This document shows positions 1,525 to 14,358 of a stretch of 64,000 nt of DNA, piece by piece (the stretch's first letter is position 1; every line of letters starts with the position of its first letter). Under the pieces are notes generated by a model. The model was given only the letters and a program-made list of their open reading frames with translations, was not told the DNA's origin and searched no databases. The position numbers and the translations under genes were made by a program. Origin of the DNA: Claveliimonas bilis (GTDB taxonomy: Bacteria > Bacillota > Clostridia > Lachnospirales > Lachnospiraceae); NCBI RefSeq assembly GCF_020892095.1, contig NZ_AP024845.1, forward strand, positions 1 through 64,000. The letters run 5' to 3'.

Positions 1525-1596
1525 TAGATATAAGCAGAAATTTTCGCCGCCTCTGTGCGGCATTGTACCTTGAAAACTGAATATGGAGGACACTGG

Positions 1597-1791
1597 ATGG
1601 CAAAAAGTGAAAGCGATATTTTTACACCCCGAACAGGGCAGGTTATACAAGCAGAGAACGGCACGCAGTATTTTGTATGTGGGAACAACCGTATAAAAAT
1701 CTCCGAACACTTCGCCGCAGGCGGGAAGCCCCTCGGTGATCTGATTGTAGATGTGGTGCGGCATACCGCAGAAAAAGCCGCTTCAACCTGA
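1597..1791 (+). CDS. tnpW: TnpW-like transposon accessory protein
   Basis: A 64-residue protein, MAKSESDIF.PRTGQVIQAENG, continuing with FVCGNNRIKISEHFA and ending in VVRHTAEKAAST. It matches the TnpW family of small proteins encoded just before tnpX in Tn4451-like elements. An in-frame upstream codon at 1555 is possible, but GGAGG at 1586-1590 favours the ATG at 1597. The molecular function of TnpW is not established. Its position between relaxase and recombinase suggests a role in transposition or its control. Confidence 0.75.
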   Translation: MAKSESDIFTPRTGQVIQAENGTQYFVCGNNRIKISEHFAAGGKPLGDLIVDVVRHTAEKAAST

Positions 1792-1801
1792 TAGCCCATC
1801 A

Positions 1802-1862
1802 TTGATAACACGCCCACGCTTATGATATAATTGCCATAGAGCAAAAGTATTGTAAGCGTGGG
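1802..1862 (+). promoter_or_regulatory. Promoter and 10-bp inverted repeat in front of tnpX
   Basis: TTGATA at 1802-1807 and TATAAT at 1826-1831 (18-bp spacer) form a good promoter for the recombinase. A perfect 10-bp inverted repeat, CCCACGCTTA at 1813-1822 and TAAGCGTGGG at 1853-1862, brackets the -10 box and the likely start of transcription. That is the layout expected of an operator or of recombinase binding arms, or of a hairpin in the leader RNA. Which of these applies cannot be decided from sequence. Confidence 0.6.
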
Positions 1863-1890
1863 TTGTTTCTTTAGAAGGAGGATTTTTACG

Positions 1891-3513
1891 GTGAAACAAC
1901 CTTACAATACTACGATTTACAACACGGCGCTTTATATGAGATTGAGCCGGGACGATGAACTGCAAGGAGAAAGCGGGAGTATTCAGACACAACGCATGAT
2001 GCTCCGGCAATATGCCGCCGAGCATGGCCTGAATGTCATAGATGAATATATCGACGATGGATGGTCTGGAACGAACTTTGACAGGCCGGATTTTCAGAGA
2101 ATGATTGATGACATTGAGGACGGGAAAATCAACTGCGTTGTTACGAAGGATTTATCCCGCTTAGGCAGAAACTACATTCTGACCGGCCAGTACACGGAAA
2201 TCTACTTTCCCAGCAAAGGCGTCCGCTATATCGCTGTCAATGACAATGTGGACACCATCAACGGAGAGAATGAGCTTGCCCCATTCCTCAACATTCTGAA
2301 TGAAATGCACGCCCGCCAGACCAGCAAAAAGGTAAAGGCGGCCATGCGGACACGGTTCGCAAATGGCGCACACTATGGAGCCTATGCTCCGCTTGGCTAT
2401 GTCAAAGACCCAGATAAGAAAGGCCATCTTCTGATTGACCCGGAAACAAGGTGGATTATCGAAAAGATTTTTGACCTTGCCGTTCATGGCCGGGGAGCCG
2501 CCAGCATTACACGGATTTTGGTCGAAGAAAAAGTACCTACTCCCGGCTGGCTGAATTTCCAGAGATACGGCACTTTCGCAAATATCTATGCCGGAGCGCC
2601 GGAGGAAAAAGCCTATGCGTGGACGATAGCGCAGGTGAAAAGTATTCTGAAAGAGGAAACCTATATCGGACACAGCGTCCACAATAAGCAGACCAACATT
2701 TCATTCAAAAACAAGAAGAAAGTACGCAAGCCAAAAGAGGAATGGTATCGTGTGGAGAACACCCACGAAGCGATTATTTCCGAAGATGTGTTCCGTCAAG
2801 TACAGGAGCAGATTTGCAACAGGCGCAGACGGCAGAAGAACGGCACAACACAGATATTTTCCGGGCTGGTAAAATGTGCGGACTGCGGCTGGTCGCTGGC
2901 CTATGGTATGAACAGCCAGAACAAAAATCCCTATGCCCACTACCATTGTAGCAAGTACGGGCAAGGATTGCACCAGTGTTCCATGCACTATATCCGCTAT
3001 GATGTGCTTTACGCCTATGTCCTTTCCCGTCTGCAATACTGGTCTGTGCTGGCACAGCAGGATGGGGACAAACTTCTGAAACGGCTACTTAACGCCAGCG
3101 ACAAGGAACGCAATACTGCAAGGAAGCGGCAGACAGCCGAACTGAAAAAGGCGGAAAAGCGCAAAGCAGAAGTAGACACCCTGTTTGCAAAAATGTATGA
3201 GGACTGGTCTGCCGGACGCATTACAGAATACAATTTCAATATGCTGTCCGAAAAGTATCAGGGCGAACAGCGAGAATTGGACGTAAAAATTGAACGGCTT
3301 CACGAAGCGATGGAGACCGCCGCCCAGACAGCGGTTGACGCTGAAAAGTGGATAGGTCTGATGAAACAGTATGTCAATCCCACAGAATTGACGGCTGAAC
3401 TTCTGAATACGCTGATTGAAAAAATCCTTGTCCATGAAGCGGTCAAAAGTGAGGACGGAAGCCGGGAACAGGAAGTGGAAATCTTCTACCGCTTTATCGG
3501 CAAAATCGAATGA
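1891..3513 (+). CDS. tnpX: TnpX/TndX-type large serine recombinase
   Basis: This 540-residue protein would excise and insert the element by serine-mediated strand exchange. The resolvase domain comes first: TALYMRLSRDD with the catalytic serine near residue 19, then YIDDGWSGTNFDRPDFQRMI and VTKDLSRLGRNY. The recombinase domain follows (YGAYAPLGYVKDP.KKGHLLID, then IAQVKSILKEETYIGH). A zinc ribbon is visible (CADCGW, CSKYGQGLHQC), and then a long coiled coil. The start is the GTG at 1891, set by AAGGAGG at about 1875-1881, not the in-frame codon at 1858. It is the last gene before the element's right end, as usual for TnpX elements. Confidence 0.92.
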   Translation: MKQPYNTTIYNTALYMRLSRDDELQGESGSIQTQRMMLRQYAAEHGLNVIDEYIDDGWSGTNFDRPDFQRMIDDIEDGKINCVVTKDLSRLGRNYILTGQYTEIYFPSKGVRYIAVNDNVDTINGENELAPFLNILNEMHARQTSKKVKAAMRTRFANGAHYGAYAPLGYVKDPDKKGHLLIDPETRWIIEKIFDLAVHGRGAASITRILVEEKVPTPGWLNFQRYGTFANIYAGAPEEKAYAWTIAQVKSILKEETYIGHSVHNKQTNISFKNKKKVRKPKEEWYRVENTHEAIISEDVFRQVQEQICNRRRRQKNGTTQIFSGLVKCADCGWSLAYGMNSQNKNPYAHYHCSKYGQGLHQCSMHYIRYDVLYAYVLSRLQYWSVLAQQDGDKLLKRLLNASDKERNTARKRQTAELKKAEKRKAEVDTLFAKMYEDWSAGRITEYNFNMLSEKYQGEQRELDVKIERLHEAMETAAQTAVDAEKWIGLMKQYVNPTELTAELLNTLIEKILVHEAVKSEDGSREQEVEIFYRFIGKIE

Positions 3514-3550
3514 CACATCTTGAGATACCCAACAATATCTTTAACTAAGG

Positions 3551-3958
3551 GAAACGGGATTGTCGGTTCCTGATTCTGATATGTTAATCTCCATATCAGA
3601 AGCGCTTGAAACACCTGTGAGCACGTTGCTTGGAGAAACTGTTATTGAAACAGAGGTTGATAACATAAAAGCTCTTTCCGAAAAACTGGAAGCAATCAAT
3701 TGGCAACTGGCTCAGAGAAAAAACATGAGAAGAAAAATTATTTGTTGGCTGCTTATTTCATTATGTACAATCATAGTAATGGTTTTTGCAGGCTTTATAA
3801 TATTAAATAGTCCTTATTTAGGTTGGGATTATAGTAACCCTGAAACTGCTGTTCTTGGAGTAGCATTTCACTCATTTGAATGGTTGTTTGTCAGAATAGC
3901 ACCGATTATCTTTATTATTGCAATTATTGGAATTTTCTTAACACGGAAGAAAGAATGA
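3551..3958 (+). pseudogene. 3' fragment of an XRE regulator with C-terminal membrane domain, truncated by the TnpX element
   Basis: Translation from 3551 reads ETGLSVPDSDMLISISEAL, the end of a Cro/CI helix-turn-helix domain (usually preceded by SKW). It continues ETPVSTLLGE, then a linker and two predicted transmembrane helices (IICWLLISLCTIIVMVFAGF and WLFVRIAPIIFIIAIIGIFL), ending TRKKE. The first ~40 residues of the HTH are missing, and what precedes is the end of the TnpX element. A TTG at 3560 could start an open frame, but without the HTH the product would not be a normal regulator. The missing 5' half should lie beyond the left end of the element. Confidence 0.8.
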
Positions 3959-4818: not shown

Positions 4819-5040
4819 ATGATCATTACTGCAACTGAATTAAAAAACAATCTCGGAAAATATCTGGAAATGGCAGAATCCCAAGATATTTTCATTACCA
4901 AAAATGGAAAAAGTATCGCCCGCCTCACAAGCCCCGCTGTCAATAAGCTTGCGCTTCTGGATGACCTCGTAGGAATTGTCCCGCATGAGAAGGCAATAGA
5001 TAAAAATACCATACGAGAGGCGCGGTTATCCAGACAATGA
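4819..5040 (+). CDS. Phd/YefM-family antitoxin
   Basis: A 73-residue protein, MIITATELKNNLGKYLEMAE, then SQDIFITKNGKSIARLTSP. This is the N-terminal DNA-binding fold of Phd/YefM antitoxins. The acidic and basic C-terminal tail (IDKNTIREARLSRQ) would wrap the toxin. It should neutralize the downstream PIN toxin and repress the operon. The stop codon overlaps the toxin start (ATGA at 5037-5040), the classic translational coupling of toxin-antitoxin pairs. GGAGG stands 8 bp upstream. It is on the plus strand, opposite to all neighbouring accessory genes. Confidence 0.85.
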   Translation: MIITATELKNNLGKYLEMAESQDIFITKNGKSIARLTSPAVNKLALLDDLVGIVPHEKAIDKNTIREARLSRQ

Positions 5041-5444
5041 GAATACTGATTGATACTAATGTCATTCTGGATATTATCCAGAAAAGGGAACCATTCTTCA
5101 CCGGTTCCTACCAGGCGCTCCGCAAGGCTATTGAAACCGATGTAGAATGTCTGCTTTCCACTTCTGCCGCCACAGATATTTTCTATATGCTCCGCAAGGC
5201 ATTCCAGTCCGCACAAAAGGCGAAGGAACGGATTGAACAGCTTTCCCAGATTGTCACCTTTGCTGATGTACAGAGTGTAGATATTCATACCTCACTTATG
5301 TGTTCCATGCCGGACTTTGAAGATGCAGTTGTGGATGCCGTAGCAGAACGAAACGGTGCAAGCTATATCCTCACAAGGAATATTAAAGACTTTGCTGGTT
5401 CTTCAGTTCCGGCGATTACACCAACTGAATTTTTGAAAAAGTAA
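5037..5444 (+). CDS. PIN-domain toxin (VapC-like ribonuclease)
   Basis: A 135-residue PIN-domain protein, MRILIDTNVILDIIQKREPF, expected to cleave RNA when freed from its antitoxin. The acidic metal-binding residues are visible: D6 in LIDTNV, a central glutamate/aspartate region (SAATDIFYML), and D in MPDFEDAVVDAVAERNGA followed by YILTRNIKDF. Length and order fit VapC-type toxins. It overlaps the antitoxin by 4 bp and is followed directly by a terminator, so the pair forms a closed two-gene operon. Confidence 0.87.
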   Translation: MRILIDTNVILDIIQKREPFFTGSYQALRKAIETDVECLLSTSAATDIFYMLRKAFQSAQKAKERIEQLSQIVTFADVQSVDIHTSLMCSMPDFEDAVVDAVAERNGASYILTRNIKDFAGSSVPAITPTEFLKK

Positions 5445-5523: not shown

Positions 5524-5856
5524 TTATCCTTTCAAATTCTTCAAAGCAGATGGATTATTCTCCAGGATAGCTCCAACAATAGAACATCTTTCCAGCTCTG
5601 AACAGTCGCCGCAAGTATCGATTCCTTTTTTCATTGCACACTGGCGAACACCACACATACTATCACAAAATACCGTTTTAACTCCTTCAACACGGCAACC
5701 TTGACAATTGATATGCTCCGGAAGGATAGGTGCATTATTTAATTCAGCCCATAGCTTTGCTGTCTTTTTTCTCAATTCTTGATCGTCATTCATTGTTGCA
5801 AGATATGCATCGCAGTGTTCACAATCCAGTCCACAATATGCAATCATTTTATTCAT
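5524..5856 (-). CDS. DUF3795 cysteine-rich protein (second copy)
   Basis: A 110-residue protein, MNKMIAYCGLDCEHCDAYLA, continuing INCQGCRVEG, FCDSMCGVRQCAMKKG and DTCGDCSELERC. The pairs of cysteines define DUF3795, a probable metal-binding family of unknown function. It is only distantly similar to the copy at 4027-4401. AAGGAGG lies 9 bp before the ATG. Upstream is a promoter-like region directly next to a copy of the CAAATCCTAATT boundary motif (5931-5942), so this gene looks like the first gene of its own unit in the accessory array. Confidence 0.75.
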   Translation of the reverse strand: MNKMIAYCGLDCEHCDAYLATMNDDQELRKKTAKLWAELNNAPILPEHINCQGCRVEGVKTVFCDSMCGVRQCAMKKGIDTCGDCSELERCSIVGAILENNPSALKNLKG

Positions 5857-5900: not shown

Positions 5901-5931
5901 ATTATAGATATCCCATTAAGGTTATTTTCAA
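5901..5931 (-). promoter_or_regulatory. Possible promoter of the DUF3795 gene, next to the boundary motif
   Basis: On the minus strand TTGAAA (5926-5931) and TATAAT (5901-5906) are separated by 19 bp, which is long. The sequence CTAATTTGAAAATA..CTTAATGGGATAT is shared with the region upstream of the gene at 11251-11523, so the two promoters are related. Confidence 0.4.
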
Positions 5932-5942
5932 ATTAGGATTTG
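5931..5942 (-). repeat. Boundary 12-mer copy 1 (CAAATCCTAATT)
   Basis: Minus strand CAAATCCTAATT. It lies between the rlmH-like repeat at 6062-6149 and the DUF3795 gene. Confidence 0.8.
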
Positions 5943-6061
5943 CCTGTTTCCAAACTCTCTCTAAACTCTATCCAACGTTTTCTAATGGTACGATATGAAA
6001 AATTGGCATATAAGCAACTAACACGATGTGTGCAAAATCAAGTCCTGCTGATCTTTATAAT

Positions 6062-6149
6062 TCATTACTTCCCACCATATCATATCCAAATGCGAAAAAC
6101 CACACTTACTCGTGACGCGGTTCCCCATAACGTATCCAAGTGCAGTTAT
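6062..6149 (-). repeat. rlmH-3'-end-like attachment repeat, copy 1
   Basis: The minus strand carries GAACCGCGTCACGAGTAAG (centre near 6115), followed by TGTGGTTTTTCGCATTTGG and GATATGGTGGGAAGTAATGAA. It is the most diverged relative of the rlmH 3' end. No terminator or promoter module follows; the boundary 12-mer stands about 120 bp further on. The rest of the 323-bp interval 5857-6179 holds no gene. Confidence 0.75.
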
Positions 6150-6179
6150 CTACTCTTTAATTTGTTCTTCTGAGGCAAT

Positions 6180-6635
6180 TCATTTATTTTTGCGATTTTT
6201 CCAAACATTATATAAAATATCTTTTAGAACCAGCATCGCATCCTGCTCACTGAAATTGTATTCCTGCTTTAATTCGTCTAACATCACGTTGATTCTATGG
6301 GCATAATTAGGAATGTTTACATTTGCCTGATATTGAAGAAGAATAGGGTATTTTTTTTCCCAGGCATTTGTCCAGTTGATTTTTTCTTCGACTTCCTCAC
6401 TTGTTTTAGCAATAGCGTCTTGAATTTCCTTGAAATCAATATCAAAGTCAATCAGTTCATCCAATGATACATGATAAAGAACCGCCATCTTTTTCGATTG
6501 GCGAATGTCAGGAACCGTTTCATCGGTTTCCCATTTTGAAACTGTTTGTCTGCTGACTCCAAGTTTGTCTGCTACGTCTTCCTGTGAAAGTCCACATTTC
6601 TTTCTCGCTTGAAATAAACTGTTTCCCAAACTCAT
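6180..6635 (-). CDS. XRE-family transcriptional regulator
   Basis: A 151-residue protein with an N-terminal Cro/CI helix-turn-helix, LFQARKKCGLSQEDVADKLG, then VSRQTVSKWETDETVPDI (residues ~7-45). A ~90-residue C-terminal region without recognised domain contains W- and Y-rich stretches (INWTNAWEKKYPILLQYQAN). GGAGG precedes the ATG. It is the last gene of its unit and ends about 30 bp before the rlmH-like repeat copy 1. Its target cannot be told from sequence; the neighbouring accessory genes are candidates. Confidence 0.8.
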   Translation of the reverse strand: MSLGNSLFQARKKCGLSQEDVADKLGVSRQTVSKWETDETVPDIRQSKKMAVLYHVSLDELIDFDIDFKEIQDAIAKTSEEVEEKINWTNAWEKKYPILLQYQANVNIPNYAHRINVMLDELKQEYNFSEQDAMLVLKDILYNVWKNRKNK

Positions 6636-6784
6636 TACATTTCCTCCTTACCTCTTTCGATAACTCTATTATATTTTCTGATAAGGACAATCGCTACCAA
6701 TCAAAATTGCCAAATTTGCTAGTATTCTTAACATAGTAATGAATCCATTTAAACATTTTTATCAAGAATTTTTGAGACAACTCT

Positions 6785-7164
6785 TTAAAATCCTCCATTA
6801 TTGTAAGCTCTTGTTATCACATAAGATGGTTCATAATATGCACTGCTGTTGTAATTGTCAAGCGTGTCACATATTTCATCATTATATACCCGGATCATTC
6901 CATCAATATAATCTTCCTCTGGCTGTAACGTTGACAGAATCAGCCTTGTATATACTTTCCCCATCTGTGTTTCTGATGGAATAACTTGTCAGGGAAATAC
7001 TCATAAAAATTTGCAACATGCTTTCTGCGTTTTGTCAAAGCCCAGCGTTTTGCCTGCTTCTCTAAAATTGTACAGTAAAACCCGTACCCAAAATCTTTGC
7101 AAAAACCATTTTCTAAGATCTGCGGCTTCTGGACTATGACATTACTCCCATGATATAAAATCAT
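6785..7164 (-). pseudogene. Internally deleted copy of the DUF3990 gene pair
   Basis: The first ~60 residues (MILYHGSNVIVQKPQILENG, ending NFYEYFPDK) are nearly identical to the start of the intact DUF3990 gene at 12745-13197. Directly afterwards the sequence continues with the last ~60 codons of the partner gene (ETQMGKVYTRLILSTL to AYNNGGF). The corresponding ~560 bp between these points at 12.46-13.03 kb are missing. The open frame 6940-7164 ends shortly after the junction. This is a deletion derivative of a duplicated locus and is unlikely to work. Confidence 0.85.
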
Positions 7165-7184
7165 ATGCTTTTTACTCCTTTACA

Positions 7185-7196
7185 GATTAGGATTTG
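7185..7196 (-). repeat. Boundary 12-mer copy 2 (CAAATCCTAATC)
   Basis: It lies 2 bp after the TudS-related gene's stop and runs into the ribosome binding site (AAAGGAG) of the deleted DUF3990 copy. The last base differs from the consensus. Confidence 0.75.
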
Positions 7197-7198
7197 TT

Positions 7199-7744
7199 CT
7201 ACACGCTTTTTAATAATGGACTCAGTTTCTCCGAAATATTATCAGTTCCTTTTAATCCTATCATTGGAATTAATATATTTTTTTCAGAAAGCCGACATAA
7301 AATCTTCTCCATAAATAGACCCATTCCTTTCATTTCAGTATTATTATCTGATGTTGTATCCACACCACAATTTGGCGAACGATTTGCACCTATAATACCA
7401 ACAATTTCAAATCCATATCTAATATATTCTAATATTTCATAAACCACGTAATCAGCCAATCGGTCTAATTGAGTGTTGGGAATATCTTTCTTCATCTCTA
7501 TACGAATACGAGTATTCTCTACCACAATGGGAGCGTCTGCTCCATAGATATTTCCTCGGTCAAGACCTAAACAGCAAAGCTCTGGACAAGGCATTTGAGC
7601 AATGCCAATATCGGCTTTCATGAAAAGTTCGATAACATTCCTAAACATGGCTGGATAAACAGCGGTTCCATCGGAAATAGAATTTTGATTTAGTAAACAA
7701 TGAGCTATAAAAACAACCTTTTTACTTCTTTCATCATCAAACAT
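7199..7744 (-). CDS. TudS-related putative desulfidase (DUF523-like)
   Basis: A 181-residue protein. The motifs IAHCLLNQNSISDGTA, MPCPELCCLGLDRGN and GANRSPNCGVDTTS are those of the CD3072-type branch of TudS/DUF523 proteins. TudS removes sulfur from thiouracil using a [4Fe-4S] cluster, and the conserved cysteines here (HCLL, PCPELCC, PNCGV) fit cluster binding. The start is placed at 7744 (MFDDERS), 7 nt after GGAG; an ATG two codons earlier is possible. Frame upstream of this is repeat DNA, not coding. It is the first gene after a promoter-bearing repeat unit. Substrate unknown. Confidence 0.72.
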   Translation of the reverse strand: MFDDERSKKVVFIAHCLLNQNSISDGTAVYPAMFRNVIELFMKADIGIAQMPCPELCCLGLDRGNIYGADAPIVVENTRIRIEMKKDIPNTQLDRLADYVVYEILEYIRYGFEIVGIIGANRSPNCGVDTTSDNNTEMKGMGLFMEKILCRLSEKNILIPMIGLKGTDNISEKLSPLLKSV

Positions 7745-7757
7745 AATCATTCTCCGT

Positions 7758-7830
7758 AAATTCAATTTTGCCAAACTATTTAGTTCATTATACCATTCGT
7801 TCATTTCCCTGTCATTTTCTTTCTTACCCA
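7758..7830 (-). repeat. rlmH-type repeat unit copy 2, promoter part (separated from its attachment part by the intron)
   Basis: Homologous to 12064-12125 and 13717-13775. It contains the promoter and a degenerate boundary motif (GGCAAAATTGAATTT). The matching attachment and terminator part is at 9681-9825, on the far side of the intron. Confidence 0.8.
7787..7815 (-). promoter_or_regulatory. Repeat-borne promoter driving the TudS-related gene
   Basis: On the minus strand ATGACA (7810-7815), 17-bp spacer ending in TGG, TATAAT (7787-7792). It is an extended -10 promoter with the same boxes and spacing as the copies at 12082-12110 and 13735-13763. Confidence 0.75.
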
Positions 7831-9680
7831 ATCGAGTAGGGGAGATTTTCTCTCCCCTCTCACACCACCGTACATGCCGTTCGGCATACGGCGGTTCAAC
7901 GTAACTTCAAAGCATGTCGCTCATTGTAATAGTCAAAACAGCTTACAAGCCCTGCTCTGGCTAATACTTCTTTAGAGATTGCCCTGACAACGCATGTCTT
8001 AGTCACTACCCAGTAATAGCGGTCTCCACAATACGCTGTCAGTCTTGCAAGGTCTTTTCCGATTCCAAGTTTCTGCAGTCCCCATTGCCGTTTCTTCGGC
8101 ACTTTCCACTGCTTCCAGATGATAACTCTGATTCTTGTTCTTAAATGTGCGTCTATCTTTATCATCGCTGTTTTCATGGAACCAAGGGCATAGTAGTTAA
8201 TCCATCCTCTTGTCGCCTGATTGATTTTCTCAATCTTGCTCGTGACTGTCCCCGGCATTTTTCTACAGGTCAGTTCTTTCAGTCTGTTTTTGAACTTCTT
8301 CACAGAGTCCTGATGGGGTCTGCACTTCCATTCATTTGTCTTACTGTCCTTGTAGAATCCGAATCCAAGATACTTCAACTTTGACGGTCTTGTGATGTGC
8401 GTTTTGGTCATATTGACCTTTAACCCCAGTTTCCTCTGTATCCAGTCTGATACCGTCCGCATCACTCTTTTGGCACTCGATTCGCTTTTGACCGCTATGA
8501 CACAGTCATCTGCGTATCTTGTGAACCGGAGTCCTCTCCTCTCCAGTTCCTTATCCAATTCATTCAGCATGATGTTTGACAGCAATGGTGATAGATTTCC
8601 GCCCTGTGGGGTTCCGAGTTTGGTTTCCTCGTATCCCTGTGGCGTCATAACTCCTGCTTTTAGATACTTGCGAATTAAGGATTCTGTATCGCCATCGTTG
8701 ATAATCTTGTGAACCAGACTCATCAACTTGTCCTGCGGTACGTTATCGAAAAATTTCTCCAAGTCGATATCTACTATCCACTCATATCCCTCGTTTAGGT
8801 ATACAAGCAGCTGTCTGATTGCCATTTCACAGCTCCGGTTCGGTCTGAAGCCGTAGCTCCATTCCGAAAACAAAGGCTCACACATGGGGCTTATCACCTG
8901 CACGATGCCTTGCTGGATTACCCGATCCATTACAGTTGGGATTCCCAGTTTTCTCATTCCGCCGTTTGGCTTAGGGATCTCCACTCTCCTGACTGGCTGG
9001 GGCTTGTACTCCCTGTTCCTGATTTGATTCCTGATACTTTCCCAATTCTCTTTGATATAATCGCCAAGTTCTTCGACTGTTACCTCATCCACCCCTCCTG
9101 CGCCCTTATTGGCACAGACTCTTTTGTATGCAGTGTTCATGTTATCTTTGGACAGTATCTTTTCCAACAGTTCTGACATTGCCTTGTGTGCTTTCTCCTT
9201 TCCGTTTCCATGGATTTGCCCTAGGTTGTGCAGTACCTGCTCATTTACGTTTCGCCCCTCCTGCCGTCAGGTATTCCATGGAGCATACATTTGATTACAC
9301 GGTTACATTGTTCAGCCCTTCAGCACTTCCCATTCCAGGGCTTTGCCTACTACGGCCTCTGCTGACTTCTCACAGTTCGTTGTTACTACTGCGGGTTTCA
9401 CAGCCTGTGAGACCTCACGGGATAAGCCTGCCAGTCTTTCCTCATCTACCTGCCTGATCTACGCACATGGGTTACGGTTGCCTTTTGGACTTCACTGTCT
9501 GTAGTCAGCTTATCCGCCATGTACGCCTTATATCAGGTTTCTGTTCGTCAGGCTACGATTTCGCTATCCCTTCTTCTCGCCCACATCTCACGATGTAAAC
9601 CTTGGGAGTCGCTATGGGGTTCGTTGGCAACTACGCCCCTTGTGGACTTTCACCACAGACTGACGGCATGCCCGTCATAC
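7831..9680 (-). mobile_element. Group II intron (probably class IIC), 1850 bp
   Basis: The ends were found by comparison with the uninterrupted repeat at 12.1 kb: joining ..CTTTTCGTA and TGGGTAAGAAAG restores the same sequence as CTTTTCGTATGGGGCAGAAAG. The intron reads GTATGACGGG at the 5' end (9680) and CTCGAT at the 3' end (7831), both on the minus strand. A domain V hairpin (ACCGCCGTATGCCG / CGGCATGTACGGTGGT) lies near 7864-7897. The insertion is 8 nt after the stem of a terminator hairpin, within its U-tract, the target preference of class IIC introns. It encodes one reverse transcriptase. Confidence 0.85.
7896..9179 (-). CDS. ltrA: Group II intron reverse transcriptase/maturase
   Basis: A 427-residue intron-encoded protein needed for splicing and retrohoming. 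The fingers-palm reverse transcriptase motifs are present: VRRVEIPKPNGGMRKLGIPT, WSYGFRPNRSCEMAI, IVDIDLEKFFDNV, GTPQGGNLSPLLSNI and the catalytic RYADDCVI. A maturase (GIIM) thumb domain follows around ATRGWINYYALGSMK. There is no HNH endonuclease at the C-terminus, as in class IIC proteins of about this length. All catalytic residues are intact, so the intron could still be active. The stop codon abuts domain V. Confidence 0.92.
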   Translation of the reverse strand: MSELLEKILSKDNMNTAYKRVCANKGAGGVDEVTVEELGDYIKENWESIRNQIRNREYKPQPVRRVEIPKPNGGMRKLGIPTVMDRVIQQGIVQVISPMCEPLFSEWSYGFRPNRSCEMAIRQLLVYLNEGYEWIVDIDLEKFFDNVPQDKLMSLVHKIINDGDTESLIRKYLKAGVMTPQGYEETKLGTPQGGNLSPLLSNIMLNELDKELERRGLRFTRYADDCVIAVKSESSAKRVMRTVSDWIQRKLGLKVNMTKTHITRPSKLKYLGFGFYKDSKTNEWKCRPHQDSVKKFKNRLKELTCRKMPGTVTSKIEKINQATRGWINYYALGSMKTAMIKIDAHLRTRIRVIIWKQWKVPKKRQWGLQKLGIGKDLARLTAYCGDRYYWVVTKTCVVRAISKEVLARAGLVSCFDYYNERHALKLR

Positions 9681-9825
9681 TACGAAAAGAGAGCGGAACA
9701 TCATCTGTCCACTCCCTTCCAAATACTCCACATGATTCATTACTTCATACCGCATTACAACCAAGTATGAAAAACCTCACTTATTTGTGATATGGTTCCC
9801 TATAACGTACTCAAGTGCGGTTTAT
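9681..9825 (-). repeat. rlmH-3'-end-like attachment repeat, copy 2 (attachment and terminator part)
   Basis: On the minus strand GAACCATATCACAAATAAG (centre near 9790), then GAGGTTTTTCATACTTGG and GGTATGAAGTAATGAATCAT. It continues into a hairpin (9689-9716) and is cut at 9681 by the intron. The promoter half resumes at 7830. Together with intron domain I it accounts for the gene-free stretch 9180-9837. Confidence 0.82.
9685..9716 (-). terminator. Terminator within repeat copy 2, target of the intron
   Basis: Minus-strand stem GGGAGTGGA / TCCGCTCTC (9 bp including G-U pairs) with a 10-nt loop, followed by TTTTCGTA and then the intron. Homologous to the hairpins at 12134-12162 and 13787-13814. 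Confidence 0.7.
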
Positions 9826-9837
9826 ATATTTAATATT

Positions 9838-10122
9838 CTATGCTATTCGTTCTTTACTTTTTTTCAACTCGTGCAAATATAGAGGATCGATATCAATGCA
9901 CTCGTTTACATTTCTTCCTCCAGCCACATCCCATGCCAATGTTCCATTTAAAACCATACATTTATCCATAAAAATATGATACGCCTTTATTCGATCAAAA
10001 ATATTAGGAGACAAATCTTTTTCTGCATGGCAGCATACAATTTTCCCATCATCAAAATATACATCCACAGTATAATCTTCGTACGGTATTACCTGAACCA
10101 CAGTTGGAATATATTCTAACAT
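9838..10122 (-). CDS. DUF2442-family protein
   Basis: A 94-residue protein, VVQVIPYEDYTVDVYFDDGK, ending in YLHELKKSKERIA, with the overall pattern of DUF2442: a small beta-rich domain, short conserved D and G positions, and an I-D-P-x-Y-L-H-E-L tail. The family is commonly encoded directly after DUF4160, as here (19-bp gap). Such pairs have been suggested to be toxin-antitoxin-like, but the biochemical role is not established. GGAGG precedes the ATG. It is the last gene of its unit and stops about 13 bp before repeat copy 2. Confidence 0.72.
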   Translation of the reverse strand: MLEYIPTVVQVIPYEDYTVDVYFDDGKIVCCHAEKDLSPNIFDRIKAYHIFMDKCMVLNGTLAWDVAGGRNVNECIDIDPLYLHELKKSKERIA

Positions 10123-10141
10123 TACAGCGCCTCCTTCATAT

Positions 10142-10402
10142 TTAAACCAAAGGATTGATTCTGTTTAACGGTTTCCCATCTTTTGCAAGTTCCCAGTTTT
10201 GCATTAATTCATCCTGATGGATCACACACCATGCCAACACAAGTTTCAGTTGCCTTGATGGCAATGCTCCCTGCAAAACACAGACATCATTTATGTCGAT
10301 CAGAGCCTTTTTCCCATTATACTCCACATGAAAGTGGGGTGGATTATGGTCATCATAATACATAGTAATCCTTATTCCATAAAACAAAGCAATTTCCGGC
10401 AT
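10142..10402 (-). CDS. DUF4160-family protein
   Basis: An 86-residue protein, MPEIALFYGIRITMYYDDHN followed by PPHFHVEYNGKKALIDI. This opening, with its PPHFH motif, defines DUF4160. A WELAKDGKPLNRI-type end is also seen. It lies directly upstream of a DUF2442 gene on the same strand; both are read from a good promoter at 10458-10486. Function is unproven; the pair is often listed as a candidate toxin-antitoxin module. A second DUF4160 gene of different sequence lies at 10989-11267. Confidence 0.78.
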   Translation of the reverse strand: MPEIALFYGIRITMYYDDHNPPHFHVEYNGKKALIDINDVCVLQGALPSRQLKLVLAWCVIHQDELMQNWELAKDGKPLNRINPLV

Positions 10403-10457
10403 ACATATACCTCCACCTTAACAGCTCACTTCTTTAATCTTACATACGATTAACTTT

Positions 10458-10486
10458 ATTATAGCTTAGACATCATATTGTGTACA
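10458..10486 (-). promoter_or_regulatory. Promoter of the DUF4160-DUF2442 pair
   Basis: On the minus strand TGTACA (10481-10486), 17-bp spacer, TATAAT (10458-10463). It begins 4 bp after a boundary 12-mer. Confidence 0.7.
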
Positions 10487-10490
10487 GATA

Positions 10491-10502
10491 AATTAGGATT
10501 TG
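10491..10502 (-). repeat. Boundary 12-mer copy 3 (CAAATCCTAATT)
   Basis: It contains the last codons of the DUF3784 gene (TAC AAA TCC TAA), so the motif itself supplies the C-terminal residues and stop codon. The promoter of the next genes follows at once. Confidence 0.8.
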
Positions 10503-10828
10503 TACTGACGATATTTTTTTGAATTTATCTTTGGTATTATAATGGATAGAATAATCATTATTGCAATTATACCAAGTCCAACACATAAAATATAATCATT
10601 GTGATTAAAGCTACCATATAATAAAAGAAATGCTCCTATTCCACAGAAAACAACACATTTTCCAAACAAATGACATATTGCTTTCTCATTGTATGTTGCT
10701 TTTTCTTCTCTACTCATTGTATTCCATCCGGCAAGAAACCAAGTGCCCTTTTGATTATAAATATTCACGCCCCATACTACTGCCCCCAAAGAAATTGCCA
10801 ATGTAAGGACTATCTCAAAGAAATTCAT
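10493..10828 (-). CDS. DUF3784-family membrane protein
   Basis: A 111-residue protein with three predicted transmembrane helices (FEIVLTLAISLGAVVWGV, FCGIGAFLLLYG, YILCVGLGIIAIMIILSIII). A cytoplasmic loop reads GTWFLAGWNTMSREEKATY, the hallmark of DUF3784. Function unknown. The start at 10828 is chosen from AAAGGAG 8 nt upstream; the longer frame to 10846 would have no such site. The C-terminus ..RQYKS and stop are formed by the boundary 12-mer, which suggests the gene was joined to the next one at that point. It is the first gene after repeat copy 3. Confidence 0.72.
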   Translation of the reverse strand: MNFFEIVLTLAISLGAVVWGVNIYNQKGTWFLAGWNTMSREEKATYNEKAICHLFGKCVVFCGIGAFLLLYGSFNHNDYILCVGLGIIAIMIILSIIIPKINSKKYRQYKS

Positions 10829-10860
10829 ACTTTCAACTCCTTTCATAAAAACACTTTGAC

Positions 10861-10979
10861 AAGTTCCGATCTGTCAACCTTGTTTTTCCATTTTTATTAC
10901 TTCACGTTATATCATACCCAAATGCGAAAAAACTCATTTATTTGTGATATGGCCCCCTATAACGTACTCAAGTGCGGTC
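10861..10979 (-). repeat. rlmH-3'-end-like attachment repeat, copy 3 (short unit)
   Basis: On the minus strand GGGCCATATCACAAATAAA (centre near 10947), then TTTTTTCGCATTTGG and GATATAACGTGAAGTAAT. After only ~25 bp it runs into a degenerate boundary motif (GACAGATCGGAACTT, 10861-10875). The terminator and promoter part present in three other units has been lost. Confidence 0.8.
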
Positions 10980-10988
10980 TAACAAAAA

Positions 10989-11267
10989 TCAACAATAATA
11001 ACTTATCTCTCCAAAATATGCAAACCATTTCTGAATAATATCAGCACTTCGTGCCTCAATCATTCTCATAATATTCCGCAACGTATGTGAAGGTATTCTT
11101 GAATTATTATTGCAGAGCAGACAGTTCCCTGCGCTGGTAATCCATACCTTTGTTGCATTTTCGGAAGGCTTTCCTTTTGCGATATGTACATGGATCGGTT
11201 CAACAGGTTTATTCTCATTTGTCCAGAAATAAATCCAGTATTCTCCCATTCTAAAGATTTGAGGCAT
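10989..11267 (-). CDS. DUF4160-like protein (second, diverged)
   Basis: A 92-residue protein, MPQIFRMGEYWIYFWTNENK, then PVEPIHVHIAKGKPSENATKVWI. It shows the DUF4160 layout, a short MP-I start followed by a P-x-H-V-H motif, in a diverged form. The ATG at 11267 overlaps the end of the upstream gene (11251-11523) in another frame, so the two are translationally coupled. Compared with the other pair (10142-10402 with DUF2442) the order is reversed: partner first, DUF4160 second. It ends ~10 bp before repeat copy 3. Role unproven; toxin-antitoxin-like by analogy. Confidence 0.68.
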   Translation of the reverse strand: MPQIFRMGEYWIYFWTNENKPVEPIHVHIAKGKPSENATKVWITSAGNCLLCNNNSRIPSHTLRNIMRMIEARSADIIQKWFAYFGEISYYC

Positions 11268-11523
11268 TCTCAAAGCCCCCTTCCTGAGAGAATTCAATAA
11301 TAAGATGAGCAGTTGATCTTATTATCTCTTCGAATTGCTTAATCTCTTCCTCCGAAAAATGGTAAATATCTTCCCATGTGTAATCGGGGAGCCAGCATGC
11401 AGCATGTTTAAATCCATATTTTTCATCTGGTCTCTCAATATACACTTTAACTCTTCCATTATCCTGCATATCAGAATGAACAATTTCCGTTTCATCGTTC
11501 AATGTCATAAAAGGATACATCAT
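11251..11523 (-). CDS. Unrecognised 90-residue partner of the second DUF4160 gene
   Basis: An acidic protein, MMYPFMTLNDETEIVHSDMQ, then VKVYIERPDEKYGFKHAACW and DYTWEDIYHFSEEEIKQFEE, ending FENASNL. No family is recognised with confidence. The predicted beta strands followed by one helix, and the overlap with a DUF4160-like gene, place it where a DUF2442-type partner would be expected. GGGAGG lies 9 bp before the ATG; a second ATG follows directly (11520). The promoter-like region upstream starts in a boundary 12-mer. Confidence 0.6.
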   Translation of the reverse strand: MMYPFMTLNDETEIVHSDMQDNGRVKVYIERPDEKYGFKHAACWLPDYTWEDIYHFSEEEIKQFEEIIRSTAHLIIEFSQEGGFENASNL

Positions 11524-11556
11524 ATCAGCATTCCTCCCTACTTCTTATACGCTACT

Positions 11557-11583
11557 ATTATATCCCATTAAGAATATTTTCAA
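11557..11583 (-). promoter_or_regulatory. Promoter-like site before the 11251-11523 gene
   Basis: On the minus strand TTGAAA (11578-11583) and TATAAT (11557-11562) with a short 15-bp spacer. The region closely resembles the one in front of the DUF3795 gene at 5524-5856. Confidence 0.45.
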
Positions 11584-11593
11584 TTAGGATCTG
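11582..11593 (-). repeat. Boundary 12-mer copy 4 (CAGATCCTAATT)
   Basis: One base differs from the consensus. It lies 23 bp after the stop of the PNPOx-like gene and overlaps the -35 region of the next promoter. Confidence 0.75.
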
Positions 11594-11616
11594 CCATACA
11601 AACCGGAAACCGAAAA

Positions 11617-12033
11617 CTAAAACTCATACTTTGTTCCATGTGAAAGTAACAGTCCCTCGGTTAATTCTACACATAAAATTATAGTATTCTCATCATCAAA
11701 ATTATTATGTCCATTGTCGATCCACTCAGAAAATACTTTTTTTAATTTCTCGGCAATCCGATAATTTTCCTCTTTCCCGAAATATCCCAAATTGATACTC
11801 TTTCCATGTGCCGTGAACCATTCACCAGCTATTGCAACAGTAGAGTTGCTTTCCATATGCCTCATTTTATTTGAAAGTGCATATGTAATAATATAAAATG
11901 CACCGTTCTCATAATAAGCATTTACATAACGTACAAAAGGCACCTCATTTTCTACTGTTGCCAATGCAATAATGGTATCTTTTCCAAATCGTTCCGCCAT
12001 TATTTTTTCAACATCTTCACTTAATTTTTTCAC
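11617..12033 (-). CDS. Pyridoxamine 5'-phosphate oxidase-like flavin protein
   Basis: A 138-residue split-barrel protein: IIALATVENEVPFVRYVNAY, then GAFYIITYALSNKMRHMESN and VAIAGEWFTAHGKSINLG. This is the pattern of small PNPOx-like (general stress protein 26-like) proteins that bind FMN, with the K-x-x-x/NSTVAIAG strand typical of the family. The frame is open back to 12291, but the upstream part is repeat DNA whose frame is not conserved between copies. The GTG at 12033 with AGGGAG 7 nt upstream is therefore chosen. It is the first gene after a complete repeat unit and its promoter. Substrate unknown. Confidence 0.72.
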   Translation of the reverse strand: MKKLSEDVEKIMAERFGKDTIIALATVENEVPFVRYVNAYYENGAFYIITYALSNKMRHMESNSTVAIAGEWFTAHGKSINLGYFGKEENYRIAEKLKKVFSEWIDNGHNNFDDENTIILCVELTEGLLLSHGTKYEF

Positions 12034-12051
12034 AAAGTCATCTCCCTTACC

Positions 12052-12063
12052 AATTAGGATTTG
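12052..12063 (-). repeat. Boundary 12-mer copy 5 (CAAATCCTAATT)
   Basis: It lies between the repeat-borne promoter and the ribosome binding site of the PNPOx-like gene, at the gene-side end of a complete repeat unit. Confidence 0.8.
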
Positions 12064-12081
12064 TCGACCTAGTTTTACTTC

Positions 12082-12110
12082 ATTATACCATTCGTTTATT
12101 TCCCTGTCAT
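12082..12110 (-). promoter_or_regulatory. Repeat-borne promoter driving the PNPOx-like gene
   Basis: On the minus strand ATGACA (12105-12110), 17-bp spacer ending TGG, TATAAT (12082-12087). Confidence 0.75.
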
Positions 12111-12129
12111 TGTCTTTCTGCCCCATACG

Positions 12130-12162
12130 AAAAGAGAGCGGAACATCATCTGTCCAACTCCC
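12130..12162 (-). terminator. Terminator within repeat copy 4
   Basis: Minus-strand stem GGGAGTTGGA / TCCGCTCTC with one bulged T and a 10-nt loop, followed by TTTTCG. It would end transcription of the DUF3990 group. Confidence 0.6.
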
Positions 12163-12277
12163 TTCTAAATACTCCTCATGATTCATTACTTCATACCATA
12201 TTACAACCAAATACGAAAAACCGTCCTTATTTATGATATGGCTCTCCATAACATATCCAAATGCGGTTATCTGCTTT

Positions 12278-12748
12278 TTAAAACCCTCCATTATTATAGG
12301 CTCTTGTTATTACATAAGACGGTTCATAATATGCACTGCTATTGTAATTATCAATCGTATCGCATATTTCATCATTGTATACTCGGATCATTCCATCGAT
12401 ATAATCTTCCTCTGGCTGTAACGTTGACAGAATCAGCCTTGTATACACCTTGCCCATCTGTGTTTCTGATGGGATCTCGTCTACTAGTTCTAAATCCACA
12501 TCCGTTATATCAAAATTTCCCTTTTCCAGCTTATACTCTTCAATCCATTCATCTTCAATTTTAAGGGGATTCTCACAGTGAAGTACATTAGCCAGGCTAA
12601 TCAGACGCACCCACTCATCTTTCGCTATAGAATTAACAACATATTTGTTTTTCTGATGTAATTTCCTTGCTACACGTTCTATCATATAACATAAAAAATA
12701 AAGATCATTCTCGGTTATTTGCTCTTCCGGGAAAAATTTATTTATCAT
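12278..12748 (-). CDS. Partner of DUF3990 protein (possibly DUF3791-like N-terminus)
   Basis: A 156-residue protein, MINKFFPEEQITENDLYFLC, then YMIERVARKLHQKNKYVVNS. This helix pair is reminiscent of DUF3791, the family often encoded beside DUF3990. The rest (DVDLELVDEIPSETQMGKVY, LILSTLQPEEDYIDGMIRVY, SSAYYEPSYVITRAYNNGGF) is not recognised. The start at 12748 is chosen because its ATG overlaps the DUF3990 stop (ATGA) with GGGAG 9 nt upstream; a longer frame begins at 12799. The last ~60 codons also survive in the deleted copy at 6785-6970. A toxin-antitoxin-like role is only a guess from pairing. Confidence 0.6.
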   Translation of the reverse strand: MINKFFPEEQITENDLYFLCYMIERVARKLHQKNKYVVNSIAKDEWVRLISLANVLHCENPLKIEDEWIEEYKLEKGNFDITDVDLELVDEIPSETQMGKVYTRLILSTLQPEEDYIDGMIRVYNDEICDTIDNYNSSAYYEPSYVITRAYNNGGF

Positions 12749-13197
12749 AGCGAATAACTCCCTTCGAATTTGATAGTCTGTAATGCTTTCTCCGTACAAA
12801 ATACAATCTGATGTGTCGGATACTTAAACTTAACCAGTTCCCAGAACGCCTCTTTCGAAATTCGTTCAGCCATATAGTCCTCAACATAATCCCAGATTGT
12901 ATCATCCGCCATCGGGCCCTCGACAACATCATAATCATGTTTTAAGCCAATCCGGCAGCTTACTACAAACTGTAGCCACTCCTCTGTCATCTCACTAAAC
13001 TTTTTAATATTCAGGCTCTTATCGGGTGAATACTCATAAAAATTTACAATATGCTTTCTTCGTTTTGTCAAAGCCCAGCGTTTTGCCTGCTTTTCTAAAA
13101 TTGTACAGTAAAACCCGTAACCAAAATCTTTATAAAAACCGTTTTCCAAGATCTGCGGTTCCTGGACTATAACATTGCTTCCATGATATAAAATCAT
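12745..13197 (-). CDS. DUF3990-family protein
   Basis: A 150-residue protein, MILYHGSNVIVQEPQILENG, then KDFGYGFYCTILEKQAKRWA and LTKRR. The YHGS..V..P and DFG.GFY motifs define DUF3990, a family with similarity to ADP-ribosyltransferase folds; activity is not demonstrated here. The remainder includes WLQFVVSCRIGLKHDYDVVE, DDTIWDYVEDY and HQIVFCTEKALQTI. AAGGAG stands before the ATG, directly after boundary 12-mer copy 6. It overlaps the downstream partner by 4 bp. A truncated duplicate starts at 7164 with the same 5' context. Confidence 0.78.
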   Translation of the reverse strand: MILYHGSNVIVQEPQILENGFYKDFGYGFYCTILEKQAKRWALTKRRKHIVNFYEYSPDKSLNIKKFSEMTEEWLQFVVSCRIGLKHDYDVVEGPMADDTIWDYVEDYMAERISKEAFWELVKFKYPTHQIVFCTEKALQTIKFEGSYSL

Positions 13198-13217
13198 ATA
13201 CTTTTTACTCCTTCACG

Positions 13218-13229
13218 AATTAGGATTTG
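13218..13229 (-). repeat. Boundary 12-mer copy 6 (CAAATCCTAATT)
   Basis: It lies 8 bp after the small membrane gene's stop and 5 bp before the ribosome binding site of the DUF3990 gene. Confidence 0.8.
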
Positions 13230-13236
13230 TATTTTC

Positions 13237-13415
13237 TCACTCGTCTTCTTTTTTATTGTTTCTACTGACATTCGTGCTTAATAATAAAATTCCAGAGAAT
13301 AAAAATAATATCCAGATTATTATATTTTCTTGATTTATCGCATTATAAATCAGGCATATCATGCTTAATATAATCTGTACAATTGGACAAATCACTCCTA
13401 TTTTTTATCCATCAT
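13237..13415 (-). pseudogene. Small membrane protein gene with a one-base frameshift in a homopolymer
   Basis: GGAGGAG is followed by ATGATGGATAAAAAATAG, a five-codon frame. If the run of six A (13401-13406 as T) had seven, the frame would run on as MMDKKIGVICPIVQIILSMI, then YNAINQENIIIWILFLFSGI, ending SRNNKKEDE (~58 residues, two predicted transmembrane helices). A GTG at 13395 could start a 52-residue version without the first residues. The ribosome binding site fits the ATG, so this is either a broken gene, a phase-variable one, or a sequencing error. Confidence 0.6.
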
Positions 13416-13428
13416 TAGCTCCTCCATA

Positions 13429-13440
13429 AATTAGGATTTA
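13429..13440 (-). repeat. Boundary 12-mer copy 7 (TAAATCCTAATT)
   Basis: It overlaps the stop codon of the membrane protein gene at 13438 and precedes the ribosome binding site of the next small gene. One base differs from the consensus. Confidence 0.75.
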
Positions 13441-13689
13441 TACACCGAATCCATTTGTTAATCCGATAAAAACTAAAATCATTCCTGCTATTCGTATTCC
13501 CTTTTTCACTTTTTCTTGTTCTAAATCTGTTATATTTATAGGATATACAGGGTTAATGAAAAAAACAAGACCTGTAAAAGCCCATGCAAGATTATAGTAT
13601 ATATCCTTAGCCAACCATAAAGAACTTATAAATCCCACAATAACCAAAGTCATAGTAACGATTATTTGCGTTCGGAAATTTATCCTCAT
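13438..13689 (-). CDS. Unrecognised small membrane protein
   Basis: An 83-residue protein with three predicted hydrophobic segments: IIVTMTLVIVGFISSLWLA, LAWAFTGLVFFINPVYPI, and IAGMILVFIGLTNGFGV. A short charged loop (DLEQEKVKKGIR) lies between the last two. No family recognised. The ATG at 13689 is chosen for AAGGAG 9 nt upstream; the open frame to 13713 runs back into repeat DNA. It is the first gene downstream of rlmH and is driven by the promoter of the rlmH-proximal repeat unit. Its stop codon lies in the boundary 12-mer. Confidence 0.6.
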   Translation of the reverse strand: MRINFRTQIIVTMTLVIVGFISSLWLAKDIYYNLAWAFTGLVFFINPVYPINITDLEQEKVKKGIRIAGMILVFIGLTNGFGV

Positions 13690-13734
13690 TTTCGACTTCT
13701 CCTTAAATTCCAATCTGTCGCGCCACTTTTCTTC

Positions 13735-13763
13735 ATTATACCATTCCTTTATTTCCCTGTCAT
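13735..13763 (-). promoter_or_regulatory. Repeat-borne promoter next to rlmH
   Basis: On the minus strand ATGACA (13758-13763), 17-bp spacer ending TGG, TATAAT (13735-13740), reading into the small membrane protein gene. Confidence 0.75.
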
Positions 13764-13781
13764 TTTATTTTCTACACATGC

Positions 13782-13814
13782 AAAAAGAGAGCAGAACATC
13801 ATCTGTCCACTCTC
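13782..13814 (-). terminator. Terminator after rlmH, within the repeat unit
   Basis: Minus-strand stem GAGAGTGGA / TCTGCTCTC, 10-nt loop, followed by TTTTT. Base changes relative to the copy at 9689-9716 keep the pairing (A-U or G-U at position 2, G-U or G-C at position 7). Confidence 0.7.
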
Positions 13815-13878
13815 TTACCAACCGTTTTACATGCCTTATTACTTCACACCATATCTCTCCCAAACGCAAAAACCGCCC

Positions 13879-14358
13879 TTACTTGTGATACGGCTCCCCA
13901 TTTATGATCCTGAATCCTCTGTATATCTGTTCCAATAGGATTACCCTCATCAGCTGATGCGGAAAAGTCATCCTGGAAAAGCTTAAAGCGAAATCAGAAC
14001 GGTCCAATACTGCCTTACCAAGGCCGATAGAGCCGCCGATCACAAAAGCAATGCTGCTCTTTCCCTGGATGCCAAGCGTCTCAATCTTGTCCGCCAGCTC
14101 TTCTGATGTCAGCATTTTCCCTTGGATTTCCAGTGTGATCACATACATATCATCTTTGATATTTTTCAAGATCCTCTCTGCTTCTTTCGCCCGTATTCCT
14201 TCCTCTACTGTTTCACTGGCCTGATCCGGCGTCTTCTCATCAGCTACTTCTATAATTTCCAGCCTGCAATATTTTCCCAATCTCTTCGCGTACTCTGCAA
14301 TAGCATCCTTTAGGTATTTCTCTTTTATCTTTCCAACGGAAATGATAGTTATTTTCAT
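13879..14358 (-). CDS. rlmH: 23S rRNA (pseudouridine-1915-N3) methyltransferase RlmH
   Basis: A 159-residue SPOUT-class methyltransferase that methylates pseudouridine 1915 in helix 69 of 23S rRNA. The full length is present: [20 protein letters not shown] at the start, the knotted SAM site [12 protein letters not shown], and the conserved end [20 protein letters not shown] to INGEPYHK. The final codons GAG CCG TAT CAC AAG TAA are the counterpart of the staphylococcal orfX/rlmH sequence used as SCC attachment site, and they are the part repeated through the accessory region. The gene itself is intact, as expected when insertion restores the 3' end. Confidence 0.95.

Follow-up and report, generated by a model that had tools for sequence, protein, structure and literature searches.

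The first 64,000 nucleotides of contig NZ_AP024845.1 of Claveliimonas bilis (assembly GCF_020892095.1), hereafter the window, carry a row of small gene cassettes behind rlmH. We propose that this region is a tandem array of staphylococcal cassette chromosome (SCC)-type cassettes that lack a ccr recombinase gene and are integrated at the rlmH 3′ end. To this class of mechanism we assign a probability of about 0.85, and a lower one to activity of the array at present. SCC elements are best known as carriers of methicillin resistance. Below, G-numbers denote genomes, G000 being the window genome and G001 a genome of the same species, and L-numbers denote fetched stretches around sites or rlmH. 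The repeats that define the array are as follows.

13879..14358 (−): rlmH, 159 amino acids, left end of the array (open reading frame (ORF) call; tblastn to 80 relatives)
12227..12265 (−): site r2, GA centre at 12243-12244, putative P/P′-type attachment (att) site
10938..10976 (−): site r3, centre at 10954-10955, GG here versus GA in the G001 copy
9781..9819 (−): site r4, GA centre at 9797-9798, left arm retained in the G001 hybrid site
6106..6144 (−): site r5, GA centre at 6122-6123, best symmetry axis one base off, right arm retained in the G001 hybrid site

As the original prediction had stated, the rlmH end recurs to give five copies in the same orientation, here located on the minus strand, all of which continue into a common tail of ~60 bp. 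The start-to-start spacings are 1653, 1289, 1157 and 3675 bp, the last containing a group II intron. The final rlmH codons are GGG-GAG-CCG-TAT-CAC-AAG-TAA, with the end at 13879, and GA 13895-13896 starts the Glu codon in G-E-P-Y-H-K; crossover in rlmH is predicted there, and 74 of 80 native rlmH ends have GA at the corresponding position. The right arm of each internal repeat resembles this end (E-P-Y-H-K-stop). Additionally, r2–r5 share a left arm close to CGCAYTTGRRTAYGTTAT, which rlmH does not have, and the two arms form an imperfect palindrome around a central dinucleotide, usually GA. RlmH itself is whole and identical between the window genome and G001, the array being integrated at its 3′ end with the gene intact.

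In the 3.04-Mb window genome, the 39-base site pattern matches only copies 2-4 of the array, and a BLAST search with copy 2 gave strong matches only to copies 2, 4 and 5, missing copy 3. Across the family, 13 of 397 genomes (12 of 334 genera) contain the pattern when up to three mismatches are allowed and none contains its reversed control, which excludes chance as the source of the site. The internal sites are symmetric about their centres. Specifically, in all 36 internal sites listed, a 37th entry being an rlmH end, on average 14.8 of 27 positions are complementary across the centre, compared with 7.6 of 27 for the 80 native rlmH ends and 6.8 (standard deviation 2.4) for 2000 random positions. 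The best axis within 8 bases lies exactly on the centre in 32 of the 36 sites (24/27 and 8/9 in two sets); among r2–r5 it does so in three of four, and three of these four centres are GA. Large serine recombinases use a central dinucleotide flanked by a dyad.

The four segments between the rlmH end and the four internal sites, none of which contains a Ccr-like gene, have the layout of a ccr-less composite or pseudo-SCC:

12244..13895 (−): cassette 1, ~1.65 kb; 91-amino-acid protein (13438-13713), DUF3990 protein matching PDC-M10A (12745-13197), PDC-M10B (12278-12799)
10955..12243 (−): cassette 2, ~1.29 kb; PNPOx_N-like gene (11620-12030), 90-amino-acid ORF (11251-11523), DUF4160 gene (10989-11297)
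9798..10954 (−): cassette 3, ~1.16 kb; DUF3784 gene (10493-10846), DUF4160 gene (10142-10402), 94-amino-acid ORF (9838-10122)
6123..9797 (−): cassette 4, 3675 bp with a group II intron and ~1.8 kb without it; 2-thiouracil-desulfurase-like gene (7199-7831), broken PDC-M10A/B (6781-7197), helix-turn-helix (HTH) gene (6180-6635)
13700..13895 (−): right arm and leader 3′ of rlmH; tail, hairpin, promoter ATGACA-17-TATAAT (13763-13735), GACAGATTGGAATTT
7831..9597 (−): group II intron domains (Rfam) on either side of a reverse transcriptase ORF (7896-9179); the leader hairpin of cassette 4 precedes them

The presence/absence variation that SCC-like tandem cassettes should display is found in G001, where one cassette is missing at the exact centre of a site. 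G001 carries the array, with 98.5% identity in the 4,774 bp that lead from rlmH to r4, but lacks the r4-r5 unit and has one hybrid site instead. Left of the centre this hybrid matches r4 at 28 of 28 diagnostic positions, right of the centre it matches r5 at 29 of 31 (exceptions at +64 and +67), and the switch is confined to 7 bp, GGGAACC, containing the GA. The difference in cassette 4 fits either a loss in G001 or a gain in the window strain. Additionally, the gene behind r5 has different left modules in the window and in G001 (right 147/150, left 96/125).

More widely, the relatives hold different cassettes between the same repeats and their gene order is not uniform, as the original prediction had proposed to check: the same modules recur in other orders, joined at the same sites. 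PDC-M10B to the left of a site has four right partners, namely the PNPOx cassette in the window and G001, the DUF3784 cassette in L005, a different gene in G010 and L228, and in L189, where the left gene is a 46% relative, yet another ORF, while the cassette 2 DUF4160 gene has three right neighbours (window, G010, L180) and the 94-amino-acid ORF five (window, G001, L005, L003, L180). Over 19 pairs of sites with the same left module, the left 150 bp have 83–100% identity over aligned bases, and the right 150 bp have 63–76% in 17 pairs, and 94% (window r2/L189, 139/148) and 85% (window r4/L005, 117/137) in two, which are alike because both share a common leader. DUF3784 stands behind different left modules in the window and L005 (right 142/149; left aligns over 37 bases only). 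In G002, rlmH directly adjoins a gene that in G010 sits beyond two site-bounded cassettes; since a site-like tail is retained there, this is not a pristine empty site.

Within the genus, rlmH was found in 10 of 11 genomes, with sites behind it in G000, G001 and G010, and with no site behind it in the stretches fetched from G002, G003, G005, G007, G008 and G009 (for G009, 1.3 kb only). Among 80 named rlmH loci, four have the site behind rlmH (L003, L005, L038, L046), and the queries used returned one serine recombinase, ~9 kb off (L065), several of these stretches being shorter than 10 kb.

Such reshuffling might also be ascribed to homologous recombination between the repeats with their leader copies, an explanation that we regard as improbable, though as the best of the alternatives. 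The leaders of several cassettes are 76–87% alike across 100–190 bp, enough for occasional exchange, and the two alike right-flank pairs among the 19 owe their likeness to the leader. However, r4 and r5 are only ~71% identical, and yet the switch in G001 lies in 7 bp at the symmetry centre and not in a 12-bp shared stretch further right; the same boundary recurs across genomes, and a clade of serine recombinases accompanies the site.

This clade bears out the connection of the site with SCC that had been suggested beforehand, in that a Ccr-like large serine recombinase is tied to the site in relatives. In G167, the site begins 23-28 bp behind a large serine recombinase gene on three contigs (the gene being whole on one, broken on another and truncated by the contig start on the third). 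The recombinase gene is broken in G293 and truncated by the contig start in G351; in both, the site lies ~1.6 kb behind it with an Rpn-like gene between, and in G182 a recombinase remnant lies between two sites. Sites bound recombinase-carrying elements in G293 and G186. Among 17 genomes the clade is distinct, with members in G293, G167, G351 and G182, the other recombinases showing ≤33% identity. The intact proteins of G167 and G186, which contain Resolvase, Recombinase and Zn-ribbon domains, score 354/386 bits against CcrB, 332/367 against CcrC, ~118 against CcrA and 136/140 against the next, non-Ccr family. In plasmid records, the best among the matches listed are staphylococcal recombinases with 37% identity. 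A match at E ≤ 1e-50 is present in at least 21 of the 397 family genomes, a lower bound since at most three candidates per genome were scored, with long matches of ≥46% identity in G167, G293, G186 and G309; in 291 genomes of the class there is one match at E ≤ 1e-80 (36%). In G309, a GA-centred palindrome (17/27) with the rlmH-end right arm and a different left arm lies 3.3 kb behind the 46%-identity recombinase relative (L223-L224, G309:C10), with no rlmH within the 39 kb fetched.

The clearest case is G186, which carries a complete element with SCC anatomy. From rlmH onward, over ~9.2 kb from the rlmH end to the site, the order is rlmH, a DUF1643 protein (57.6 bits), several genes without a family, the intact recombinase, an Rpn-family nuclease and the site; by this layout the site is an attachment site of that enzyme family. 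DUF1643 also occurs in the G293 element and is absent, by Pfam, from the ten array proteins scanned. The large replication-type ORFs of the G186 and G293 elements gave no convincing match in Pfam or NCBIfam. Rpn-family or Rpn-like nuclease genes repeatedly stand beside the Ccr-like recombinase and the sites (L181, L184, L186, L190, L221), possibly as a partner or standard cargo.

These nuclease genes also lend some colour to a second, very unlikely explanation, by which the site is a dispersed hairpin (a terminator, or like a repetitive extragenic palindromic (REP) sequence) spread by a transposase such as an Rpn/PD-(D/E)XK nuclease, its likeness to rlmH being incidental. Outside the window genus, Rpn-family genes lie beside sites (in L186 and L221 by family search, in L181, L184 and L190 by sequence look), and RNA of the site would fold into a long hairpin, often with T's behind it. 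Several facts speak against this explanation. In the window genome the site is found behind rlmH only, and the scan of ten array proteins turned up no Rpn-family member. Most copies have a right arm similar to the coding end of rlmH, and the G186 element from rlmH to site carries a recombinase; the Rpn genes look like cargo that these elements carry. Least probable of all is an integron-like system in which a tyrosine integrase captures cassettes at attC-like hairpin sites, as a promoter by a fixed chromosomal site, short same-orientation cassettes and palindromic sites might suggest, for the site goes with a large serine recombinase that has the domains named above, and the crossover in the G001 hybrid lies at the palindrome centre, whereas attC-type exchange occurs at the R′ box; no search was aimed at an integron integrase or at attC sites. 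The integron comparison drawn in the original prediction is therefore limited to layout, where it holds.

Several observations weigh against the SCC-type reading. The centre is not always GA: among the 36 sites it is GA in 29, CA in five (L190 900, L190 11329, L185 9487, L038 7831, L180 9389), GG in one and GC in one. Of the three sites in G293, two are CA and one is GA, and the CA pair flanks the recombinase element, as if centres had to match. The recombinase scores lie far under the NCBIfam equivalog cut-offs (354 and 386 versus 900 for CcrB), and the enzyme is therefore a relative of Ccr, not Ccr itself. No close recombinase was found in G000 or G001, where the best-scoring matches have 24-30% identity, reach E 3e-30 at best in the window genome and never E ≤ 1e-50; the genomes of L005 and L003 are likewise without one (best 29% and 26%). 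Mobility of the array at present is accordingly less certain than the class of mechanism. Among 21 site-bearing stretches (3.8-64 kb, many of them short), the clade is present, whole, truncated or as a remnant, in 7 and not in 14 (E ≤ 1e-20). G004 has the leader and modules with no recognisable site. Cassette 4 contains broken genes, a sign of decay. Finally, the internal sites, with two P-type arms, are attP-like, and serine integrases of the textbook kind are not known to join one attP site to another, so that exit or entry of cassettes in mid-array stays conjectural.

On the SCC-type reading, each internal repeat would be a double-arm P/P′ attachment site of a Ccr-like large serine recombinase, and the first junction would be rlmH/P′. 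Strand cleavage and exchange by the enzyme would take place at the central GA, so that each cassette would span GA to GA, presumably passing through circular intermediates, and the cassette next to rlmH would supply E-P-Y-H-K-stop, which is why rlmH would stay intact. It is plausible that cassettes were added one after another. Three of the four start with a shared leader, a hairpin followed by a strong sigma-70-type promoter, and the cargo consists of small genes that include a candidate anti-phage pair; the host may benefit. With no enzyme encoded in the array, a visiting autonomous element like that of G186 could supply the recombinase in trans. Action in trans had been predicted from the lack of a recombinase gene; that lack stands for the array, and the search of the genome, from which such an enzyme might have come, found no close Ccr-like one. 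The window itself encodes a serine recombinase at 1858-3513, which was rejected as the array enzyme: it scores 112 bits against CcrB versus 354/386 for the site-linked clade and has a DUF4368 domain.

The tail continues into a hairpin and an ATGACA-17-TATAAT promoter at three places, namely behind rlmH, in copy 2 and in copy 4, where the intron intervenes; cassette 3 and the stretch behind r5 are without this leader. Of all extended sigma-70 matches in the region, the best three (11/12, with TG before the second hexamer; 13763-13735, 12110-12082 and 7815-7787) fall in the leaders of cassettes 1, 2 and 4. The total of promoter-like matches is not above chance (33 versus 29.0 expected, standard deviation 4.7). 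From reading the sequence, the leader hairpins may be terminator-like; terminator prediction called none of them and gave five terminators in all versus 3.9 by chance. The intron is inserted just behind a leader hairpin, a position that class C group II introns prefer.

As for the cargo, Pfam assigned among the ten array proteins DUF3990, PNPOx_N (28.6 bits, cut-off 28.1), DUF4160 twice and DUF3784, and gave no family for the 91-, 90-, 94- and 173-amino-acid proteins; the 2-thiouracil desulfurase match of the cassette 4 gene is below the Pfam cut-off. PADLOC identifies the DUF3990 protein as PDC-M10A (257 bits) and its neighbour as PDC-M10B (291 bits), a candidate defence system with both subunits; a literature search found no paper covering both PDC-M10 and PADLOC. 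The array was not found on plasmids in a near-match search, nor cassettes 1-3 in phages in a distant-match search.

A second short sequence, designated motif B, also marks the borders of modules.

5931..13441 (−): motif B, ACAAATCCTAATT with up to two mismatches, seven copies, starting at 13429, 13218, 12052, 11582, 10491, 7185 and 5931

All seven copies lie on the coding strand and none on the other, compared with 0.18 expected and with at most 3 in any of 500 simulated sequences. Gene bodies contain no copy, and two copies overlap the stop codon of the preceding gene. DUF4160 modules in three left contexts are 92-98% identical up to the first bases of motif B and unrelated beyond (-99 to -101 from the start codon), homology of DUF3990 modules in five contexts ends between -16 and -33, in or just behind motif B, and that of the PNPOx module ends at -25, inside it. 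The module designated c2a does not support a motif-B border in this comparison, which is ungapped and readily disrupted by a single indel. Between the window and G001, too, similarity ends just within the motif-B copy behind gene 5524-5856. The first genes of cassettes are often preceded by a related sequence, the leader form GACAGATTGGAATTTG. Exact motif B occurs in 67 of 397 family genomes and 6 of 11 genus genomes (both including G000 and G001); among 34 contexts outside these two, 21 are inside an open frame, so most exact matches elsewhere are probably due to chance, and two of the same genus, L150 and L153, are at a stop codon. On one reading motif B is a second exchange site, and on another it is a conserved intergenic signal where modules happen to join. 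A two-tier platform is a doubtful extension, in which outer SCC-type cassettes would be exchanged at the rlmH-end sites and single genes or gene pairs at an inner motif of 13-16 bp, RACAAATCCTAATTTG (leader form GACAGATTGGAATTTG), placed after a stop codon and before the following ribosome-binding site and served by a putative enzyme. If true, it would be an integron-like platform built from different parts that feeds small defence and toxin-antitoxin-like genes to shared promoters.

Three neighbouring features were noted. In L153, 8950-11300 (G010:C44) is a further accessory region, in which copies resembling motif B stand at the ends of genes and leader-like ones precede genes. At 4819-5444 (+) of the window, a two-gene pair, which we take to be of the antitoxin/PIN type, replaces the front part of a G001 gene, with one edge inside a motif-B copy. 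A mobile element at 580-3557 carries a large serine recombinase and presumably a relaxase-like gene, and an HTH gene, longer in G001, is cut near 3557. The names DUF2442, DUF3795, SMI1/KNR4, GNAT, Phd-PIN, MATE, glyoxalase, relaxase and primase/helicase (Cch-like) are our assumptions from sequence look, confirmed by no family search.

Mobile integrons combine a promoter with a row of small, promiscuous gene cassettes. The present array shares the promoter and the small-cassette row with them and differs in enzyme class and sites, and in that three of its four cassettes bring their own promoter. Staphylococcal SCC inserts at the rlmH 3′ end and has att repeats with TATCA(T/C)AA, tandem composites and ccr-less members (in part PMC10061031, PMC3637587). 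The rlmH 3′-end site, att repeats carrying the rlmH end, tandem composites and ccr-less members are common to both, whereas here the cassettes measure 1.2-1.7 kb (the fourth, its intron discounted, ~1.8 kb) and share leaders, no Ccr-like enzyme was found in the genome, relatives have a single Ccr-like enzyme, and the host family is Lachnospiraceae. In the parts of its description seen, the Enterococcus element ECC uses the rlmH site, has inverted repeats in attR and attECC, and shows multiple attR sites in 16 of 32 ECCs; it shares the rlmH site, inverted repeats and TATCATAA with the present array and differs in carrying ccrAB and in reaching much larger sizes (a 32-kb example), and those parts describe no tiny ccr-less arrays (PMC6222049). 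SCC-like islands with Pol-SSB primases across Bacillota, according to sections of their description, lie mostly downstream of rlmH, carry a large serine recombinase and include some tandem composites with more than one rlmH-end repeat; unlike the present cassettes those listed there are full elements, and the C. difficile and C. perfringens examples are in ssrA, not rlmH (PMC10061031).

ECC and the Bacillota islands being already published, the kind is known; what is new is the host group, how large the cassettes are and what they contain, and that array and enzyme are separate. No description of rlmH cassette arrays in Lachnospiraceae was found in open-licence PubMed Central papers, which is weak evidence of absence. 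Here the site known from SCC elements and a cousin of their enzyme class are found in a different bacterial family, and the cassettes are reduced to a few small genes. The array offers a small, natural and testable substrate for how Ccr-type recombinases build tandem arrays in trans. It also adds to earlier published indications that rlmH serves Bacillota at large as a landing site for exchanged genes.

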